Shown one piece after another: positions 8,506 to 23,615 of a stretch of 44,959 bases of DNA. A model generated the notes under the pieces. It saw nothing but the letters and a program-made list of their open reading frames with translations, did not search any database and was not told the origin of the DNA. Made by a program: the position numbers and the translations under genes. The stretch is from Candidatus Levyibacteriota bacterium. Lineage in GTDB: Bacteria > Patescibacteriota > Microgenomatia > Levybacterales > UBA12049. Location: NCBI GenBank assembly GCA_029260905.1, contig JAJDCH010000004.1, positions 1-44,959 of the forward strand, read 5' to 3'. Numbering within the stretch: position 1 is the first letter of the stretch; each line of letters starts with the position of its first letter.

Positions 8506-9321
8506 ATGAAACACTTTCTATTTATAATATCTTTTTTTGTCGCAATATTTTTCTTCGGATTAAGTGCTGAAAAAGCTGAAGCATATACCTGTGGAAGCAA
8601 TAGCAACTGCCATGGTGAAGAACTTACAAAATGCGGAAGCAATAGTAGGTGTAGTGGACCAAATCTTACCAATTGTGGCAGTAACAGCACCTGTTCAGGT
8701 CCCAAATTAGAAAAGTGCGGAAGTAGTAGTACATGCAGCGGTCAGGCTCTAAACAAATGTGGAAGCAATAGCAACTGCATGATAAAGTCTTCAAACCACA
8801 ACAACTCAAGCTACCATTCAAAAACAATACAACGCGAACAAGAAAAAGAACAAAGAAGAATTGAAAGGGAAAAACAAAAAGTGGAGAGAGAAAGAAAAAG
8901 AGCAGAGAGAAAAGCTGAAAGCGAAAAAAGGAAAAAGGAAAGACTTGCTAAAAGACGAGAAAATTGTCTAGAAAAAGGAAAGTATTGGAATGGTTCTAAA
9001 AACAGATGCGAAAGACACTCATCAAATAATAACACAAGCTACAGAGAAAGAAATGACAATAACTGCTATTGGTTCCATTGCCCGGACAATTCAAAAAACG
9101 GCTACGACCGTGATTACGATAGAAATAATAATGGAGGGTACAGCTATAATGATGGCAGAGATGGCGGTCGCGGAGGAGACGGAGGTAATGGTGGCAACGG
9201 AGGTAATGGTGGCAACGGTGGGAATGGTGGCAACGGAGGCAATGGCGGTAATGGTGGCAACGGAGGCAATGGCGGTAATGGGGGTAATGCTTACTTCGTA
9301 GACTATAGATTCCACAAATAA
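8506..9321 (+). CDS. Secreted repeat protein: 5x 14-aa Cys repeats, charged coiled region, C-terminal (GGN)12 tract
   Basis: Signal peptide MKHFLFIISFFVAIFFFGLSAEKAEA; CGSNSxC(SG)xxLxK repeats; GGN repeats. No family recognised. Confidence 0.85.
   Translation: MKHFLFIISFFVAIFFFGLSAEKAEAYTCGSNSNCHGEELTKCGSNSRCSGPNLTNCGSNSTCSGPKLEKCGSSSTCSGQALNKCGSNSNCMIKSSNHNNSSYHSKTIQREQEKEQRRIEREKQKVERERKRAERKAESEKRKKERLAKRRENCLEKGKYWNGSKNRCERHSSNNNTSYRERNDNNCYWFHCPDNSKNGYDRDYDRNNNGGYSYNDGRDGGRGGDGGNGGNGGNGGNGGNGGNGGNGGNGGNGGNGGNGGNAYFVDYRFHK
8590..8778 (+). repeat. Tandem 42-bp (14-aa) Cys-rich repeats, 4 full plus 1 partial
   Basis: CGSNSNCHGEELTK/CGSNSRCSGPNLTN/CGSNSTCSGPKLEK/CGSSSTCSGQALNK/CGSNSNC. Confidence 0.9.
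9181..9288 (+). repeat. 9-bp tandem repeat encoding (Gly-Gly-Asn)x12
   Basis: GGAGGTAATGGTGGCAAC... 108 bp = 12 x 9 bp with synonymous variation. Confidence 0.95.
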
Positions 9322-15964: not shown

Positions 15965-17698
15965 ATGGACAAGAAAAATCTTGAAAATCTTCGTCACTCT
16001 AGCGCGCATCTTCTTGCTGCTGCAATTCTTGAACTTTTTCCTGATACCAAACGAGCGATTGGTCCTGCCATTGAAACAGGATTTTACTATGATTTTGATT
16101 TCGCAAATCCTATCTCAGAGGAAGAATTACCAAAAATTGAGAAAAAAATGACAGAGATACTAAAGACCTGGAAAAATTTTGAAAAAGAAGAAGTGTCAAT
16201 AATAGATGCAAGAAATCAATTTAAAAATGAACCTTACAAACTCGAGCTAATTGAAGAATTTGCCAAAAACAATAAAAATTTGACTATCTACAAATCAGGT
16301 AACTATGAAGATCTCTGCAAAGGAGGCCACTCAGAAAACCCAAGCAAAGAAATTGGCGCGTTTAAACTTCTTTCAATTGCGGGTGCATACTGGAAAGGGA
16401 ACGAGAAAAATAAAATGCTTACACGCATTTACGGCACTGCTTTCCCGAATAAAAAAGAACTTGAGGAATATTTAAATCAATTAGAAGAAGCCAAAAAAAG
16501 AGATCATCGTAAGCTAGGACGTGAACTTGATCTTTTTGTAATATCAGAGCTGGTCGGGGGGGGGCTACCACTTTTTACACCAAAAGGAACACTTTTAAGA
16601 GATCTTCTCTCAGGCTTCTCAGAGTCACTTCAAAAAAGTTATGGATATGAAAAGGTTTGGTCAACTCATATAGCAAAAACTGACTTGTACAAAAAATCAG
16701 GGCATTGGGACAAATTCGGAGATGAGCTTTTCTTGGTAAAAAGTCAGGAAACAGATGATCAATTTATAATGAAGCCAATGAATTGTCCACATCATATTCA
16801 AATCTATAACTCCAAACCAAGATCGTACCGAGATCTTCCAATTAGATACATGGAGACAACAACAGTCTACAGGGATGAAAAAGCAGGAGAGCTACTTGGA
16901 ATCTCAAGGGTTAGGTCTCTTACACAAGACGATGCACATGCTTTCTGTACTATGGATCAAATAGAAAAAGAGTTTGAAAACATTATCTTAATGATTCAAG
17001 AAATGTATGACGCTCTTGACCTAAAATTCAAAGCGCGTCTTTCGTTTAGAAATGATGAAGATAAATATCTAGGTGATAAGAAAAAATGGGTTGAAGCGCA
17101 AAGAATTATTGAAAAAGTGGCAAAAAAACTAAATCTTGAATACTTCATACAAGAAGGTGAAGCTGCTTTTTATGGTCCCAAAATTGATATCATGATAACT
17201 GATTCTCTGGGACGTGAGTGGCAGTGCGCAACTGAGCAGCTTGATTTTGTCCAACCAGAACGTTTTGGCATCACATATGTTGACTCAGACGGAGCAGAAA
17301 AAACACCTGTCATGATTCACAAAGCACTTCTTGGTTCAATTGAAAGATTTCTTTCAGTCTACATAGAACATACTGGCGGGATCTTTCCTGCATGGCTTGC
17401 GCCAATTCAAATTATGCTTCTTCCAATTGCAGATAGACATATAGAATATGCTGAAAAAATTCAAAAACAATTAAAAGAAAAGGGCATAAGGGTAGAACTG
17501 GATTCACGTTCTGAAAGACTTCAAGCCAAAATAAGGGATGCTACTTTACAAAAAGTACCCTATTTAGGTATAATAGGGGATAAAGAGGTTGAGGAGACCT
17601 CTTTATCTGTAAGAAAGAGGAATGGTCAAGACCAGGGGCAAATCCCAGTTGAGACATTTCTCCAAAATTTAAGACAAGAAATTGATAAAAAGATTTAA
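15965..17698 (+). CDS. thrS: Threonyl-tRNA synthetase
   Basis: RHSSAHLLAAAI, MKPMNCPHHIQIYNS, class II aaRS motifs. Confidence 0.97.
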   Translation: MDKKNLENLRHSSAHLLAAAILELFPDTKRAIGPAIETGFYYDFDFANPISEEELPKIEKKMTEILKTWKNFEKEEVSIIDARNQFKNEPYKLELIEEFAKNNKNLTIYKSGNYEDLCKGGHSENPSKEIGAFKLLSIAGAYWKGNEKNKMLTRIYGTAFPNKKELEEYLNQLEEAKKRDHRKLGRELDLFVISELVGGGLPLFTPKGTLLRDLLSGFSESLQKSYGYEKVWSTHIAKTDLYKKSGHWDKFGDELFLVKSQETDDQFIMKPMNCPHHIQIYNSKPRSYRDLPIRYMETTTVYRDEKAGELLGISRVRSLTQDDAHAFCTMDQIEKEFENIILMIQEMYDALDLKFKARLSFRNDEDKYLGDKKKWVEAQRIIEKVAKKLNLEYFIQEGEAAFYGPKIDIMITDSLGREWQCATEQLDFVQPERFGITYVDSDGAEKTPVMIHKALLGSIERFLSVYIEHTGGIFPAWLAPIQIMLLPIADRHIEYAEKIQKQLKEKGIRVELDSRSERLQAKIRDATLQKVPYLGIIGDKEVEETSLSVRKRNGQDQGQIPVETFLQNLRQEIDKKI

Positions 17699-18279: not shown

Positions 18280-18477
18280 ATGAAAACAAAGAAAAAAGTT
18301 AGAGATTCAGTTGCTAAGCGCTTTAAGGTTACAAAAACCGGAAAAGTGATGTTTGAGCATCAATATGGATCACACAAAAAGATAAATAAGTCAAAAAGCA
18401 GAATTAGACGTCAAAAAGAACCTGGAGTTCTAACTGGAAAATTCGCAAAAAAAATAAAGAAAATGTTATCGAAATAA
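18280..18477 (+). CDS. rpmI: 50S ribosomal protein L35
   Basis: KTKKKVRDSVAKRFKVTKTGKVMFEHQYGSHK; ATG 18280. Confidence 0.95.
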   Translation: MKTKKKVRDSVAKRFKVTKTGKVMFEHQYGSHKKINKSKSRIRRQKEPGVLTGKFAKKIKKMLSK

Positions 18478-18510
18478 TATTTCTTAATTCATAAATCGTA
18501 AATCAAGACT

Positions 18511-18861
18511 ATGAGTAGAATTAAAAGAGGAACAGTATCAAGAAGAAAACACAAAAAGCTTTTGGAGTCAACCAAAGGCTATCGTGGCACAAAATCAAAA
18601 CTTGTTAAAATCGCAAAAGAAGCAAGTCTTCACGCAGCAGCTTATGCTTATCACGGACGAAAACTTAAAAAAAGAGACTTCCGAACTCTATGGATAACCA
18701 GAATTGGTGAAGCAGTTAAAAAAGAAGGTCTTTCTTATAGCGTATTTATCAACAAACTAAAGCAGGCAAAAATAGAAATTGACCGCAAAATATTATCAAG
18801 CATAATAGTTGAAGATCCTGAAGCATTTAAACATATTGTTGAAAGTGCAAAAAAAGTATAA
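18511..18861 (+). CDS. rplT: 50S ribosomal protein L20
   Basis: MSRIKRGTVSRRKHKKLLESTKGYRGTKSKLVKIAKEA...YAYHGRKLKKRDFRTLWITRI. Confidence 0.97.
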   Translation: MSRIKRGTVSRRKHKKLLESTKGYRGTKSKLVKIAKEASLHAAAYAYHGRKLKKRDFRTLWITRIGEAVKKEGLSYSVFINKLKQAKIEIDRKILSSIIVEDPEAFKHIVESAKKV

Positions 18862-18865
18862 TCAA

Positions 18866-18919
18866 ATGAAATCTACAAACAAAAAATCATTTGGGTTTTT
18901 CTTTTATTTTACTCCCTAG
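18866..18919 (+). CDS. Phe-rich leader peptide MKSTNKKSFGFFFYFTP*
   Basis: 17 codons incl. 5 Phe and 1 Tyr, 4 nt after the rplT stop, followed by antiterminator/terminator; same locus position as E. coli pheM. Confidence 0.93.
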   Translation: MKSTNKKSFGFFFYFTP

Positions 18920-18992
18920 CAGGAGGCGTTGGCTTAATTTGTCAACAAAAGGACACCCTTTCCAAGCCTCCTAACATAAGGGAGGTTTTTTT
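18920..18992 (+). promoter_or_regulatory. Transcription attenuator: antiterminator (2:3) and terminator (3:4) hairpins upstream of Phe/Tyr biosynthesis and pheST
   Basis: 2:3 AGGAGGCgTTGG (18921-18932) with CCAAGCCTCCT (18962-18972), 11 bp; 3:4 AAGCCTCCT (18964-18972)-AACATAA-GGGAGGTTT (18980-18988) with T run 18986-18992. Confidence 0.92.
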
Positions 18993-19007
18993 ATATAAAA
19001 TAAATAT

Positions 19008-19292
19008 ATGAAAAAAGAAAATACACTCAAAAAATACAGATTTGAGATTGATAAAATTGATGAAAAAATATTATCTCTTCTGGCAAAACGCATAAATATT
19101 AGTAAAAAAATTGGTGAACACAAACTAAAAAACGGCCTCCCAATTGTTGACAAAAAGAGAAAAAGTGAAATATTTGAAAAACTTCAAAAAACTGCAAGTA
19201 AAAAAACCCTTTCAGATGAATTAGTTAAAAATATTTACAAAATAATTCATGACTCATCAGTTGATCTACAGAAAAACATAAAAAAATTATGA
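19008..19292 (+). CDS. Chorismate mutase (AroQ type)
   Basis: RFEIDKIDEKILSLLAKRINISKKIGEHKLKNGLPIVDKKR. Confidence 0.88.
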   Translation: MKKENTLKKYRFEIDKIDEKILSLLAKRINISKKIGEHKLKNGLPIVDKKRKSEIFEKLQKTASKKTLSDELVKNIYKIIHDSSVDLQKNIKKL

Positions 19293-20611
19293 AAAAAATA
19301 ACAATAATTGGATTTGGGAGATTTGGAAAAACACTCTACAGCCTACTTTGTGATGACTTTGAAGTTACTGTTTATAACAGAAGCATGATAAGCAATGAAG
19401 AAACAGAGAATTTAAAAATTGCAAAAGACCTAGCTGATGCATACAAAAATGATGTTATATTTTTTGCTGTTCCAATTTCTGCTTTTGAAAAAGTAATATC
19501 AAATCATAAAAAATATTTTCGCCCCAGACATCTACTGATCGATGTTCTTGGCGTAAAATCATTCCCACAAAAAATTTTTGAAAAATACCTCACTGGCCTT
19601 AAAACTCAAGCTATTCTCACTCACCCAATATTTGGGCCAGATAGTGCCGATAAAGACTTTTCTGGACTTCCAATCGTCATGAATAGACATACATCAAGTT
19701 CAGAAAATTTTATATTTTGGAAAAATTTTTTTCAAAGAAAAGGCTTAAGGGTTGTTGAGATGGATCCAATTGAACACGACAAGATGGATGCTTATTCTCA
19801 CGGTCTTACACATTTTATCGGAAGACTGCTTAAAGAATTTGAGATGAAACCTACACCGATTGACACACTTGGCGCAAAAAGACTTCAGACAGTGATTGAA
19901 CAAACCTGTGGTGATAGCTGGGAACTTTTTTCTGATATGCAGCACTATAATAAATTTGCAGAAGAGATGCGAATCAAGCTTGTCAAATCATACGACAAGC
20001 TTTCTCAAAAACTTTTGGGCAATCAAGCAAACCCAGGCTTTGTCACAATCGGCATTCAAGGAGGCAGAGGAAGTTTTAATGAAGAAGCAATATTAGAATA
20101 TATTAAAAGAAAAAATATTAAAAAATACATAATCAAATACCTTCATACCAGTAAAGGTGTTCTCAAAGATCTTGTAACTGGAAAGGTGGATTTTGGTCAA
20201 TTCGCCACTCACAATTCAACAGGGGGAATGGTACTTGAAAGCATTGAGGCGCTTGCTAGATATAGATGTAAAATAGTTGAAGAATTTGAAATAATTATTT
20301 CTCATGCCCTTATGATAAGAACAGATGCAAAAATATCAGATATTACAAGCATAATGACTCATCCACAAGTGCTAGCGCAGTGCAAAAAAAATCTGGCTAA
20401 AAAATATCCAAGTTTTGAAAAAACATCAGGAAAAGGAAAATTGATAGATCATGCTCTTGTTGCCAAAAAATTAGGCGAAAAAAAACTTCCCAAACATATA
20501 GCAACTATGGGAAGCAAAATCCTGGCTGATATTTATGGACTAAAAATAGCTGAAGAAGATCTTCAAGATCTCAAGCAGAATTATACAAGTTTCTTAATTG
20601 TTGAAAGGTAA
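19289..20611 (+). CDS. Fused prephenate dehydrogenase (TyrA) - prephenate dehydratase (PDT) protein
   Basis: N-term GFGRFGKTLYSLL Rossmann motif, THPIFGPDSA, SHGLTHFIGR; C-term GGRGSFNEEAI, HNSTGGMVLESIEAL, MTHPQVLAQCKKNL, NYTSFLIV. Confidence 0.88.
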   Translation: MKKITIIGFGRFGKTLYSLLCDDFEVTVYNRSMISNEETENLKIAKDLADAYKNDVIFFAVPISAFEKVISNHKKYFRPRHLLIDVLGVKSFPQKIFEKYLTGLKTQAILTHPIFGPDSADKDFSGLPIVMNRHTSSSENFIFWKNFFQRKGLRVVEMDPIEHDKMDAYSHGLTHFIGRLLKEFEMKPTPIDTLGAKRLQTVIEQTCGDSWELFSDMQHYNKFAEEMRIKLVKSYDKLSQKLLGNQANPGFVTIGIQGGRGSFNEEAILEYIKRKNIKKYIIKYLHTSKGVLKDLVTGKVDFGQFATHNSTGGMVLESIEALARYRCKIVEEFEIIISHALMIRTDAKISDITSIMTHPQVLAQCKKNLAKKYPSFEKTSGKGKLIDHALVAKKLGEKKLPKHIATMGSKILADIYGLKIAEEDLQDLKQNYTSFLIVER

Positions 20612-20629: not shown

Positions 20630-21658
20630 ATGGAACACGAATTGTTAACAATTAAAAATAATGCGCTTTCATTGATACTTGATGCTGCTGATAGAAAAGA
20701 GCTTGATGAAATTAAACTCCAATTCCTGGGTCGCTCTGGAGAGCTGACAAAAGCCTTAAAGGGATTGTCCAAGCTTAAAAAAGAAGACAGACCCAAAATA
20801 GGAGTAGTTGCCAATGACGTAAAGACGATAATTGAGGATGCAATCTCACAAAGAGAACAGGCATTGGGAAAAGTTCAAAAAAAATCAATAAATATTGATG
20901 TCACAGAACCCGGGACAAAACCTGCTCTTGGCTCCCTTCATCTTGTGACCCAGGCCATGCGTGAGATAACCAAAATTTTTGAAAGCATAGGATTTCAAAG
21001 AGTCCGTTATCCTGAAATAGAATGGGATTGGTACGCATTTGAGGCACTCAATTTTCCTGAAAATCATCCAGCCCGAGATGACTGGGAAACATTTTTTATT
21101 GATCAAAAAAAAAGTGACAAATACGGACCAGTTGTTCTAACGCCCCACACATCAAGTGGCCAGATTAGACAACTTGAAAAAGGCAAGCTACCTGTTAAGA
21201 TGCTGAATATTGCCAAGTGCTATAGACGCCAGTCTGACGTCTCGCATACTCCGATGTTTCACCAATTCGAGACTCTGGTTGTTGGTGAAAATATATCTAT
21301 TTCAGATCTCAAGGGAACGCTTGATTATTTTGTAAAATCATATTTTGGCCAAAACAGAAAATCAAGAATAAGACCATATCATTTTCAGTTCACTGAACCA
21401 TCATTTGAGACAGATGTTTCATGTGGAGTTTGTAATGGGCGTGGCTGCAAACTTTGCAAAGAAGGCTGGCTAGAAATAGGAGGAGCTGGAATGGTCCATC
21501 CAAATGTTTTGAAAAACTGTGGGTTTGATCCTGAAAAATACACAGGCTTTGCATCAGGTTGGGGGGTAGAGAGAGTTCTTATGATGAAAGATGGAATTCA
21601 AATTGATGATCTGAGAACGCTTTATGGCAATGATTTAGATTTTTTGAAACAGTTTTGA
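20630..21658 (+). CDS. pheS: Phenylalanyl-tRNA synthetase alpha subunit
   Basis: FLGRSGELTKALKGL, HPARDDWETFFI, HTSSGQIRQLE, GFASGWGVERVLMMKDGI. Confidence 0.97.
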   Translation: MEHELLTIKNNALSLILDAADRKELDEIKLQFLGRSGELTKALKGLSKLKKEDRPKIGVVANDVKTIIEDAISQREQALGKVQKKSINIDVTEPGTKPALGSLHLVTQAMREITKIFESIGFQRVRYPEIEWDWYAFEALNFPENHPARDDWETFFIDQKKSDKYGPVVLTPHTSSGQIRQLEKGKLPVKMLNIAKCYRRQSDVSHTPMFHQFETLVVGENISISDLKGTLDYFVKSYFGQNRKSRIRPYHFQFTEPSFETDVSCGVCNGRGCKLCKEGWLEIGGAGMVHPNVLKNCGFDPEKYTGFASGWGVERVLMMKDGIQIDDLRTLYGNDLDFLKQF

Positions 21659-21659
21659 T

Positions 21660-23615
21660 ATGAATATACAAATACTAGATAGCTTCCTAAGAGAACATTT
21701 GAAGACAAAGGCAACTCCTAAGCAAATTGCCGAGCTTCTCTCGCTTTCAAGTGTTTCTGTTGAAAGACTTGAAAAATACAAAGATGATTATCTTTATGAT
21801 ATCGAGGTGACAACCAATAGACCAGATTTAATGTCTGCAGTTGGTCTTGCAAGAGAAACAGCAACAGTTCTAAAACATAACAAAATTGATGCGGAATTTA
21901 TTCCAGTCAAAATAGCTGAACCAACAAATATAAAAAAACTTGAATCAGTAAATATAAAAAATAACCCAGAACTCGTTAAGAGAATTTGTGCTGTTGTGAT
22001 GGAGGTGCAAATAAAAGATTCTCCCCAGAAAATAAAAGACAGACTTGAATCATCAGGAATAAGAAGCCTTAACAACCTAGTTGATATAACCAACTACGTT
22101 ATGCGCATAATCGGTCACCCAACACACGTTTTTGATTTTGATTTAATTCCTACCAAAACACTTGAGATTCGAGAATCAAGAAGTGGTGAAAAGATACAGA
22201 CTCTTGATGGGAAAAGCCATGAGCTAAAAGGCGGAGATATAGTCGCAGATGATGGATTGGGACACATCATAGATCTTCTTGGTGTAATGGGACTTGAAAA
22301 CAGCTCAAGTAATAACAACACAAAAAGAATTTTATTTTTCGTAAACAACAACAATCCTGAAAAAATAAGAAAAACCTCAATGACACATGGGATAAGAACT
22401 GAGGCAGCAATTCTTAATGAAAAAGGTATAAGCTCAAACTATGCAAGAGATGCGCTATTATACGGTATAAAACTTTATGAAGAACTAGCTGATGGAAAAG
22501 TAATATCAGATCTAATTGATATAAATAACAAAAAATCTGAAACAAAATCAATTACCGTAAGTCTTTTAAAAATAAATTCAGTAATTGGAATTAATATCCC
22601 TGCAAAAACTTCAATCCAGATCCTAAAAGATTTGGAATTTGAAGTAAAAGAAGATAGTGAAAAACTGACTGTAACACCACCGCATTTCAGAGAAAAAGAT
22701 ATAGAGAATGAAGAAGACATAATTGAAGAAATTGCAAGAATTTATGGATATCACAATATACCAAATAAACTCCCAAACATCCATTCAGGAGAAATACTAA
22801 GTCTTGAAGAGAGCGAATTTTATTTTGAAGACCATATACGTGATGCGCTGAGATACTGGGGACTAAATGAAGTCTATACTTACCCGATGGTCTCTGAAAA
22901 TTTATATGAAGGAGATCTATCAGATGCAGTTACTATCAAAAATCCTTTGAACGAAGAATTTGTTTATATGCGAAAAACCCTTATCCCAAGTCTTTTAAAA
23001 GTTGCAAAAGAAAATAAAACCCATGAAAATATATCTATTTTTGAAATTGCAAATATTTATGAAAAAAACGGAGACAATCTTCCTAAAGAAATATTAAAAC
23101 TTGCAGGAATCATAAAAAAGAAAAAGCTATCTTTCTACAAAGTCAAAGGGCTGGTTGAACAACTTCTTATAGATCTAGGAATTAAAAAAATTGATTTCAA
23201 AAAATCAGCTGAGGGAATGGGTGCTGATATCTATATAGACAAGGAGATGATTGGATATATAGAAATACTAGATACGGAGACTATTGATTTTGAAATAGAT
23301 TTTGAAAAAATTCTAAAATATGCAACTCTCAAAAAAACGTACAAACCAGTTAGTAAATTTCCACCAGTTATTGAGGATTTATCAATCATCGCACCAGAGG
23401 ATATCTCAACAGGCTCACTTATTGACACTATTAAAAACCAGAGCGAGTTGGTATCAAAAGTAACCCTACTTGATAAATATCAAAACACAAGAACCTTCCA
23501 CATAATTTATCAGAGCGATAAAAGAAATATGACAATAAAAGAGGTGGGGGAGTTGCGGGAAAAAATCTTAAAAGAATTAAAAAGCAAACACAACGCAAGC
23601 CTTAAAAAACAATAA
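21660..23615 (+). CDS. pheT: Phenylalanyl-tRNA synthetase beta subunit (short form, no N-terminal EMAP domain)
   Basis: YDIEVTTNRPDLMSAVGLARE, LVDITNYVMRIIGHPTHVFDFD, EEDIIEEIARIYGYHNIP. Confidence 0.95.
   Translation: MNIQILDSFLREHLKTKATPKQIAELLSLSSVSVERLEKYKDDYLYDIEVTTNRPDLMSAVGLARETATVLKHNKIDAEFIPVKIAEPTNIKKLESVNIKNNPELVKRICAVVMEVQIKDSPQKIKDRLESSGIRSLNNLVDITNYVMRIIGHPTHVFDFDLIPTKTLEIRESRSGEKIQTLDGKSHELKGGDIVADDGLGHIIDLLGVMGLENSSSNNNTKRILFFVNNNNPEKIRKTSMTHGIRTEAAILNEKGISSNYARDALLYGIKLYEELADGKVISDLIDINNKKSETKSITVSLLKINSVIGINIPAKTSIQILKDLEFEVKEDSEKLTVTPPHFREKDIENEEDIIEEIARIYGYHNIPNKLPNIHSGEILSLEESEFYFEDHIRDALRYWGLNEVYTYPMVSENLYEGDLSDAVTIKNPLNEEFVYMRKTLIPSLLKVAKENKTHENISIFEIANIYEKNGDNLPKEILKLAGIIKKKKLSFYKVKGLVEQLLIDLGIKKIDFKKSAEGMGADIYIDKEMIGYIEILDTETIDFEIDFEKILKYATLKKTYKPVSKFPPVIEDLSIIAPEDISTGSLIDTIKNQSELVSKVTLLDKYQNTRTFHIIYQSDKRNMTIKEVGELREKILKELKSKHNASLKKQ

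Follow-up and report, generated by a model that had tools for sequence, protein, structure and literature searches.

A predicted ribosome-mediated attenuator between rplT and aromatic amino acid genes of a Candidatus Levyibacteriota bacterium

Introduction

How might an ultrasmall, uncultured bacterium tie the expression of its aromatic amino acid genes to the supply of phenylalanine? The question is raised by a short aromatic-rich open reading frame (ORF) and an intrinsic terminator found between rplT and genes for chorismate mutase (CM), a prephenate dehydrogenase-prephenate dehydratase (PDH-PDT) fusion and phenylalanyl-tRNA synthetase (PheRS) on the 45-kb contig JAJDCH010000004.1 of a Candidatus Levyibacteriota bacterium (the whole stretch of DNA analyzed, referred to as the window; the genome comprises 954 kb in 17 contigs). 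The closest named loci for the window rplT belong to Candidatus Levybacteria (Microgenomatia, Patescibacteria), at 70% identity. To our knowledge, gene regulation in Patescibacteria is close to unknown. Here, the element behind rplT is interpreted as a ribosome-mediated transcription attenuator sensing charged tRNA-Phe (and tRNA-Tyr), a reading to which we assign a probability of roughly 0.9 and for which sequence, conservation, covariation, codon placement and gene context provide the evidence.

Anatomy of the element behind rplT

The putative leader peptide MKSTNKKSFGFFFYFTP is encoded on the forward strand, as are all other parts of the element, by 17 codons at 18866..18919, with the ATG at 18866, 4 nt past the rplT stop codon (18859-18861), and a TAG stop at 18917-18919. 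Five Phe codons (at 18890, 18896, 18899, 18902 and 18908) and one Tyr codon (18905) are present, and an aromatic-rich ORF is conserved in relatives. Segment 1 (ACTCCCT, 18911..18917), deduced from the fold of 18905-18935, can pair with segment 2 in the absence of a ribosome according to this model, with weak covariation of the 1:2 pairing in relatives. Segment 2 (AGGAGGCGTTGG, 18921..18932) represents the 5′ arm of the antiterminator, and segment 3 (CCAAGCCTCCT, 18962..18972) is common to antiterminator and terminator; both are defined by sequence, by their pairing and by covariation. The intrinsic terminator (18964..18992), consisting of the stem 18964-18972/18980-18988 and a T-run to 18992, is the sole terminator-like site within 18300-19300. 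As in an attenuator, a short ORF rich in codons for the amino acid made or used by the products of the downstream genes (CM, PDH-PDT and PheRS) is followed by an intrinsic terminator located between this leader and the first gene. An initial annotation, made from the letters of this DNA alone, had proposed the 17-codon ORF with its five Phe codons and one Tyr codon, the 2:3 pairing and the sharing of segment 3 with the terminator, all of which is confirmed base for base. Its coordinates for segment 2 hold as well, except that the gap to the leader stop codon amounts to one base and not to the claimed 2 nt.

The RNA of 18860-19000 folds with z = -3.08, only 1 of 200 shuffles being equally stable. 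Within the 12 codons before segment 2, six are aromatic, compared to a mean of 1.0 in 20 dinucleotide shuffles, and the last of them ends 10 nt before segment 2. The antiterminator of the window reaches -21.8 kcal/mol versus -11.2 kcal/mol for the terminator, and pairing of segment 2 with its own segment 3 (-17.9 kcal/mol) is as strong as or stronger than that with about 98% of the segments 3 taken from other elements.

Alternative hairpins and their conservation

For comparison, 94 elements were analyzed by locating the terminator by structure and then testing the upstream region for pairing. Since the 2:3 and 3:4 pairs conflict, no single three-segment covariance model was used but an alignment-free swap test, in which pairing of each upstream region with its own segment 3 is compared to pairing with the segments 3 of other elements. 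Own partners pair at a mean of -15.6 kcal/mol and foreign ones at -12.3 kcal/mol (z = -13.3; 0 of 5000 permutations), a contrast that is shrunk, not inflated, by relatedness among the genomes. In the corresponding control, pairing of the leader region with segment 3 showed no preference for the own partner in the same 94 elements. In an alignment of 84 sequences, which was fitted to the 3:4 stem, 95% of the cells of this stem are paired, changes on both sides occur at 7 of 7 pairs and none of 500 shuffles is as good on any measure. Likewise, in the 2:3 stem, which lies outside the model, each of the 7 pairs has changed on both sides, above the level of shuffles and slides. Covariation of the two stems across relatives, which the initial annotation had put forward as a check, is therefore found for both. 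Of the two hairpins, the antiterminator has the higher stability in 87 of the 94 elements, and the loop between segments 2 and 3 (about 20-60 nt) is not conserved. The predicted antiterminator and terminator are mutually exclusive, and the antiterminator is conserved by covariation.

Leader peptides and translation start

At least four aromatic codons in the 12 codons before segment 2 are found in 80 of the 94 elements versus 6.2 in dinucleotide shuffles, a count inflated by relatedness among the genomes. The gap between the last aromatic codon and segment 2 has a median of 10 nt (interquartile range 7-11, 94 elements). A ribosome covers about 15 nt counted from the P-site codon onward. Hence, when stalled at the last aromatic codon it would just clear segment 2. 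The leader stop codon either immediately precedes segment 2 or falls within or beyond it, by some 14-28 nt, and with either placement the terminating ribosome would, by geometry, hide segment 2. Conservation of the peptide is restricted to its aromatic run (F, Y and W) and the T-S or T-P behind this run; its N-terminal half is not conserved, and the segment 1 bases are. In many relatives, in-frame Trp codons (TGG, 37 in total) replace Phe or Tyr codons.

A TTGACA/TATAAT-type promoter with at least 10 of 12 matches and a -10 box ending 5-14 nt upstream of the leader ATG was detected for 41 of 79 leaders, compared to 0.33 in shuffled sequences (200 rounds, maximum 3); at a threshold of at least 9 of 12 matches the values are 60 of 79 and 2.6. 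Shine-Dalgarno-like motifs, in contrast, precede only 2 of the 79 leader ATGs versus 23 of 79 first downstream ORFs, the starts of the latter being uncertain. Transcription starts about 7 nt after a -10 box, so that the respective transcripts would begin at the AUG or within a few bases of it. The leader peptides of most relatives are therefore probably translated from leaderless mRNAs.

Proposed mechanism

Translation of the leader, stalling and a change in termination are what we infer for the window element. RNA polymerase leaving rplT would transcribe the leader ORF while a ribosome translates it. When charged tRNA-Phe is scarce, this ribosome would stall on the FGFFFYF run, its leading edge reaching no further than about 18920 when the stall is at the last Phe codon, leaving segment 2 (18921-18932) free for pairing with segment 3; the terminator would then be blocked and CM, PDH-PDT and pheST would be transcribed. 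With ample charged tRNA, the ribosome would proceed to the stop codon and cover segment 2, allowing the 3:4 terminator to form. The classical attenuation suggested by the initial annotation is supported by the conservation of an aromatic ORF behind rplT, by the covariation of both stems, by the codon placement and by the gene context.

Occurrence in relatives and other Patescibacteria

Among 60 genomes of relatives, mostly draft metagenome assemblies, 56 possess rplT, 24 of them with a short ORF, rich in aromatic codons, that separates this gene from a terminator (such as MQKPGKTFWFYFTFA, MRKHQLNFWFYYYFTS, MNSRINNSFWFYFTSPTGRLVSA and MKQFNNRKITFWFYFTS); in one of the 24 (L046) the aromatic run is present without a listed start codon. 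The element is followed by pheS in many relatives and by a gene for 3-deoxy-D-arabino-heptulosonate 7-phosphate (DAHP) synthase, as read from sequence, in L038, L040, L047, L059 and L063. When 80 named loci were checked for a pheM-like ORF after rplT, it was convincing only in L072 (Levybacteria) and in L075, whose contig position is shared with a genome of the same class. Short ORFs of about 70-105 aa, variable and without annotation, often separate the terminator from pheS (L191, L199, L190, L043 and L045), some of them with AAGGAGGTGA upstream.

A covariance model built from 23 rplT-adjacent elements, all of Patescibacteria (R1), matched 68 of 82 genomes of the order at E ≤ 0.01 and 170 of 374 genomes of the class at E ≤ 1e-4. 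Near-identical predicted switches recur, according to these matches, in about half of the sampled genomes of the class. Among the matches listed for the phylum sample, 14 are outside the class, several with clear leaders such as MNASNNNWFYFYFFSA before chorismate mutase and a Leu-rich leader before a LeuA-like gene (downstream identities being read from sequence, without a family search). At E ≤ 1e-4, R1 did not match any of 172 genomes outside Patescibacteria (29 obtained via named loci and 143 Gammaproteobacteria) and is therefore considered specific; in the 29 genomes, full-length matches were absent even at E ≤ 0.01, R1 not being tuned to pheM. Three weak matches at E ≤ 0.01 in the 143 Gammaproteobacteria (L293-L295) resemble unrelated terminators on inspection and were dismissed. 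A further match (G000 C2:15446-15527) without a plausible leader ORF was taken as a generic terminator.

Putatively regulated genes and additional leader types

An aromatic-pathway, PheRS or tyrosyl-tRNA synthetase (TyrRS) gene is found within 3.5 kb downstream of 65 of 81 aromatic leaders, counting the families DAHP synthase, AroA, AroB, dehydroquinase, chorismate mutase, prephenate enzyme, PheRS and TyrRS. The nearest recognized gene is DAHP synthase in 27 cases and PheS in 22. In the genome of the window, a second copy with the leader MKNIQQLVKIWFYFTS heads an operon of PfkB-aroB-aroA-aroK-aroE-aroD-aroC and a Trp/Tyr-type tRNA synthetase. Leaders rich in Ile, Leu or Thr show the same architecture, for example, MANQFISTTTTIS before thrS and MNKQNRSIIEIIASQEGGVLA before citramalate synthase, the latter enzyme meeting the NCBIfam cut-off. 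This agreement of leader residues with gene function is the strongest sign of what is probably a codon-sensing mechanism. Beyond the initial annotation go the large number of such elements, the second copy on the shikimate operon, the Trp codons in relatives and the mostly leaderless-looking leaders.

Loci with Thr-, Ile- or Leu-rich leaders, situated before thrS, citramalate synthase or unknown genes, include L194 (G026 C35:4021-4103), L198, L200, L189 (G072 C1:256219-256319 and 257947-258037) and L185 (G017 C38:18085-18194 and 19207-19298); on the last of these contigs, three attenuator-type elements (Leu, Ile, Phe) are arranged in series. A PfkB-family sugar kinase heads shikimate operons behind aromatic leaders in which shikimate kinase is also present (L305:8179-9108, G000 C3; L231:2571-3524), and a fructose-bisphosphate aldolase (L231) and a PEP-mutase/methylisocitrate-lyase-like gene (L246) occur in the same way; a role of these enzymes in precursor supply is possible. 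L195:669-1589, located immediately downstream of an aromatic leader and upstream of chorismate mutase, encodes an IIAGPCS-containing, DAHP synthase-like protein that has no Pfam or NCBIfam match at E 1e-5. In one family (L218, L219, L239, L240 and L243), an aromatic leader precedes a gene for a non-discriminating aspartyl-tRNA synthetase, without evident aromatic link.

Alternative explanations

Several observations weigh against attenuation at this locus and its relatives. When the whole of 18917-18992 is folded at once, the minimum-energy fold of the window contains the terminator, albeit by a small margin, and antitermination must therefore be kinetic, depending on the order of synthesis as in known systems. 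The window leader lacks both a Shine-Dalgarno motif and a promoter close by (the best -10 box is 59 nt upstream), so that initiation would require coupling to rplT or some other route; this copy is an exception and is probably translated by coupling as part of the rplT transcript, or else expressed from the weak promoter 59 nt upstream. In the alignment of relatives, the register of the 2:3 stem slips, with 77% of the cells paired and weaker column-wise support. The element was not found after rplT in 32 of the 56 relatives, where rplT is followed directly by pheS or by a plain terminator (the latter in L041, L049, L056 and L058). Moreover, R1 was trained on aromatic-rich elements and thus favors that class among distant matches, and 16 of the 81 aromatic leaders lack a recognized aromatic gene within 3.5 kb.

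The relatives with a plain terminator could suggest that the window, too, has an ordinary rplT terminator, preceded by a T-rich stretch that happens to read as a Phe-rich ORF, and T-rich DNA does read as Phe by chance above average. However, aromatic codons are far denser than in dinucleotide shuffles, T-richness is not the explanation for in-frame Trp codons, segment 2 covaries with segment 3, and elements of this type also precede aromatic genes away from rplT. With swap test, codon density and downstream gene context all opposing it, this chance explanation was rejected as very unlikely. A different driver of the same two hairpins is conceivable, as these exist whatever switches them and as the loop between segments 2 and 3 is long: a T-box-like tRNA contact, a metabolite aptamer or an RNA-binding protein might act here. 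The lack of conservation of this loop argues against such a driver, and a riboswitch or T-box identity was rejected because no match to either was obtained in Rfam, including the T-box covariance model. In addition, where thrS or citramalate synthase is the downstream gene, the leader residues change to Ile, Leu or Thr, as expected from codon sensing, making another driver very unlikely. Finally, the start of the window ORF only 4 nt after the rplT stop, without an initiation signal of its own, would suit a translated leader whose main action is translational coupling or the supply of a functional small protein, attenuation being slight. Considering that a terminator with T-run and a covarying antiterminator follow the leader, and that only the aromatic run and the segment 1 bases of the peptide region are kept, such a function is highly improbable. 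Attenuation by a ribosome stalling on aromatic codons accordingly remains the preferred reading.

Comparison with known systems

The analogy to E. coli pheM drawn in the initial annotation proved apt. In the order thrS-infC-rpmI-rplT-pheM-pheS-pheT, pheM occupies the same place after rplT (pheST-ihfA attenuator), and its peptide ends in FFFYFST compared to FFFYFTP in the window. Segment 2 (AGGAGGC), segment 3 (AGCCTCC), a GGAGG in segment 4 (GGAGGC in pheM) and the T-run are further likenesses. On 6.5 kb of E. coli DNA, R1 found pheM as the sole match (31.9 bits, E 1.3e-5, corresponding to about 0.009 when scaled to the whole chromosome). Unlike in E. coli, CM and PDH-PDT are inserted between leader and pheST in the window, the leader lies right next to rplT and lacks a Shine-Dalgarno motif of its own, and the elements of relatives occur at many other aromatic operons, with added Trp codons. 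GGAGG/CCTCC stems and Phe runs could arise twice, while their arising twice at the same operon place is less likely; the likeness may reflect common descent, transfer or convergence, and with common descent the rplT-linked copy and pheM would go back to one ancient element.

The Rfam model RF01859 (Phe_leader), named in the initial annotation as a suitable comparison, matches the window element over its full length (model 1-125; 34.3 bits, E = 2.7e-4). The gathering score of 55 is not reached, however, neither by the window nor by the best relative (51.7), and 0 of 82 genomes of the order exceed it. The models of the two systems detect each other's elements, though weakly. At E ≤ 0.01, RF01859 matches 53 of the 82 order members, with the best matches on the same loci as R1. 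The window element is not filed as a Phe_leader member, though it would appear to work like one.

In mycobacteria, cysteine-rich, leaderless-type upstream ORFs have been proposed as attenuators, their cis-regulatory role being called speculative (PMC4633059). These resemble the present elements in that a short ORF rich in the sensed amino acid lies upstream of the genes it would regulate, in a lineage where leaderless transcripts are common, and differ in amino acid and phylum. Histidine leader peptides before hisS/hisZ of Bacilli document leader peptides outside Proteobacteria and Actinobacteria (PMC2965389). They share the combination of an amino acid leader peptide and a terminator before an aminoacyl-tRNA synthetase gene, but concern histidine, Firmicutes and single gene families as opposed to the pathway-wide set described here.

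Novelty and implications

Our literature search, which did not cover most subscription papers, returned no paper joining Patescibacteria with attenuation and a leader peptide, in agreement with the initial annotation, which knew of no description in the Candidate Phyla Radiation; papers joining the latter term with leader peptide deal, in the parts accessible to us, with other subjects. A review on Patescibacteria makes no reference to attenuation and describes the mechanisms behind differentiation as unknown (PMC11665869). The mechanism proposed here is itself known, but no earlier report of it from this phylum was found. We see even odds for the wider proposal that Microgenomatia and at least some other Patescibacteria possess a genome-wide set of attenuators with leader peptides mostly read from leaderless mRNAs, each tuned to its operon (Phe/Tyr/Trp for shikimate, chorismate-branch, PheRS and TyrRS genes; Ile/Leu/Thr for thrS and citramalate synthase), and that the rplT copy could be the same ancient element as pheM.

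In the window, the switch probably turns on aromatic amino acid genes under phenylalanine shortage. Roughly half of the sampled genomes of the class would then carry a regulatory code readable from sequence that indicates the amino acid sensed for each operon, suggesting that cells with small genomes monitor their own aromatic amino acid supply and do not merely depend on uptake from a host. Coupled transcription and translation in these cells would be implied, and a route is offered for assigning functions to unknown genes within attenuated operons. The question is also reopened whether the pheM attenuator is older than assumed or has evolved twice at the same place.

Genes surrounding the element

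The gene labels of the initial annotation agree with the Pfam matches. Directly upstream, rplT (18511..18861, forward strand) encodes ribosomal protein L20 (PF00453); further upstream, thrS starts at 15965 (PF00587) and infC at 17682 (PF00707). The first gene under the proposed control encodes a type II chorismate mutase (19008..19292; PF01817, E 7.6e-23), followed on the same forward strand by the PDH-PDT fusion (19289..20611; PF02153 and PF00800), pheS for the PheRS alpha subunit (20630..21658; PF01409) and pheT for the beta subunit (21660..23615; PF03483, PF03484, PF17759 and PF03147). A tRNA-Phe gene (GAA) is located on the opposite strand of the same contig at 6529-6602, about 12 kb from the attenuator. 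At 8506-9321, a predicted protein shows N-terminal CGSNS/CSGP repeats and a long Gly-Gly-Asn repeat tail.
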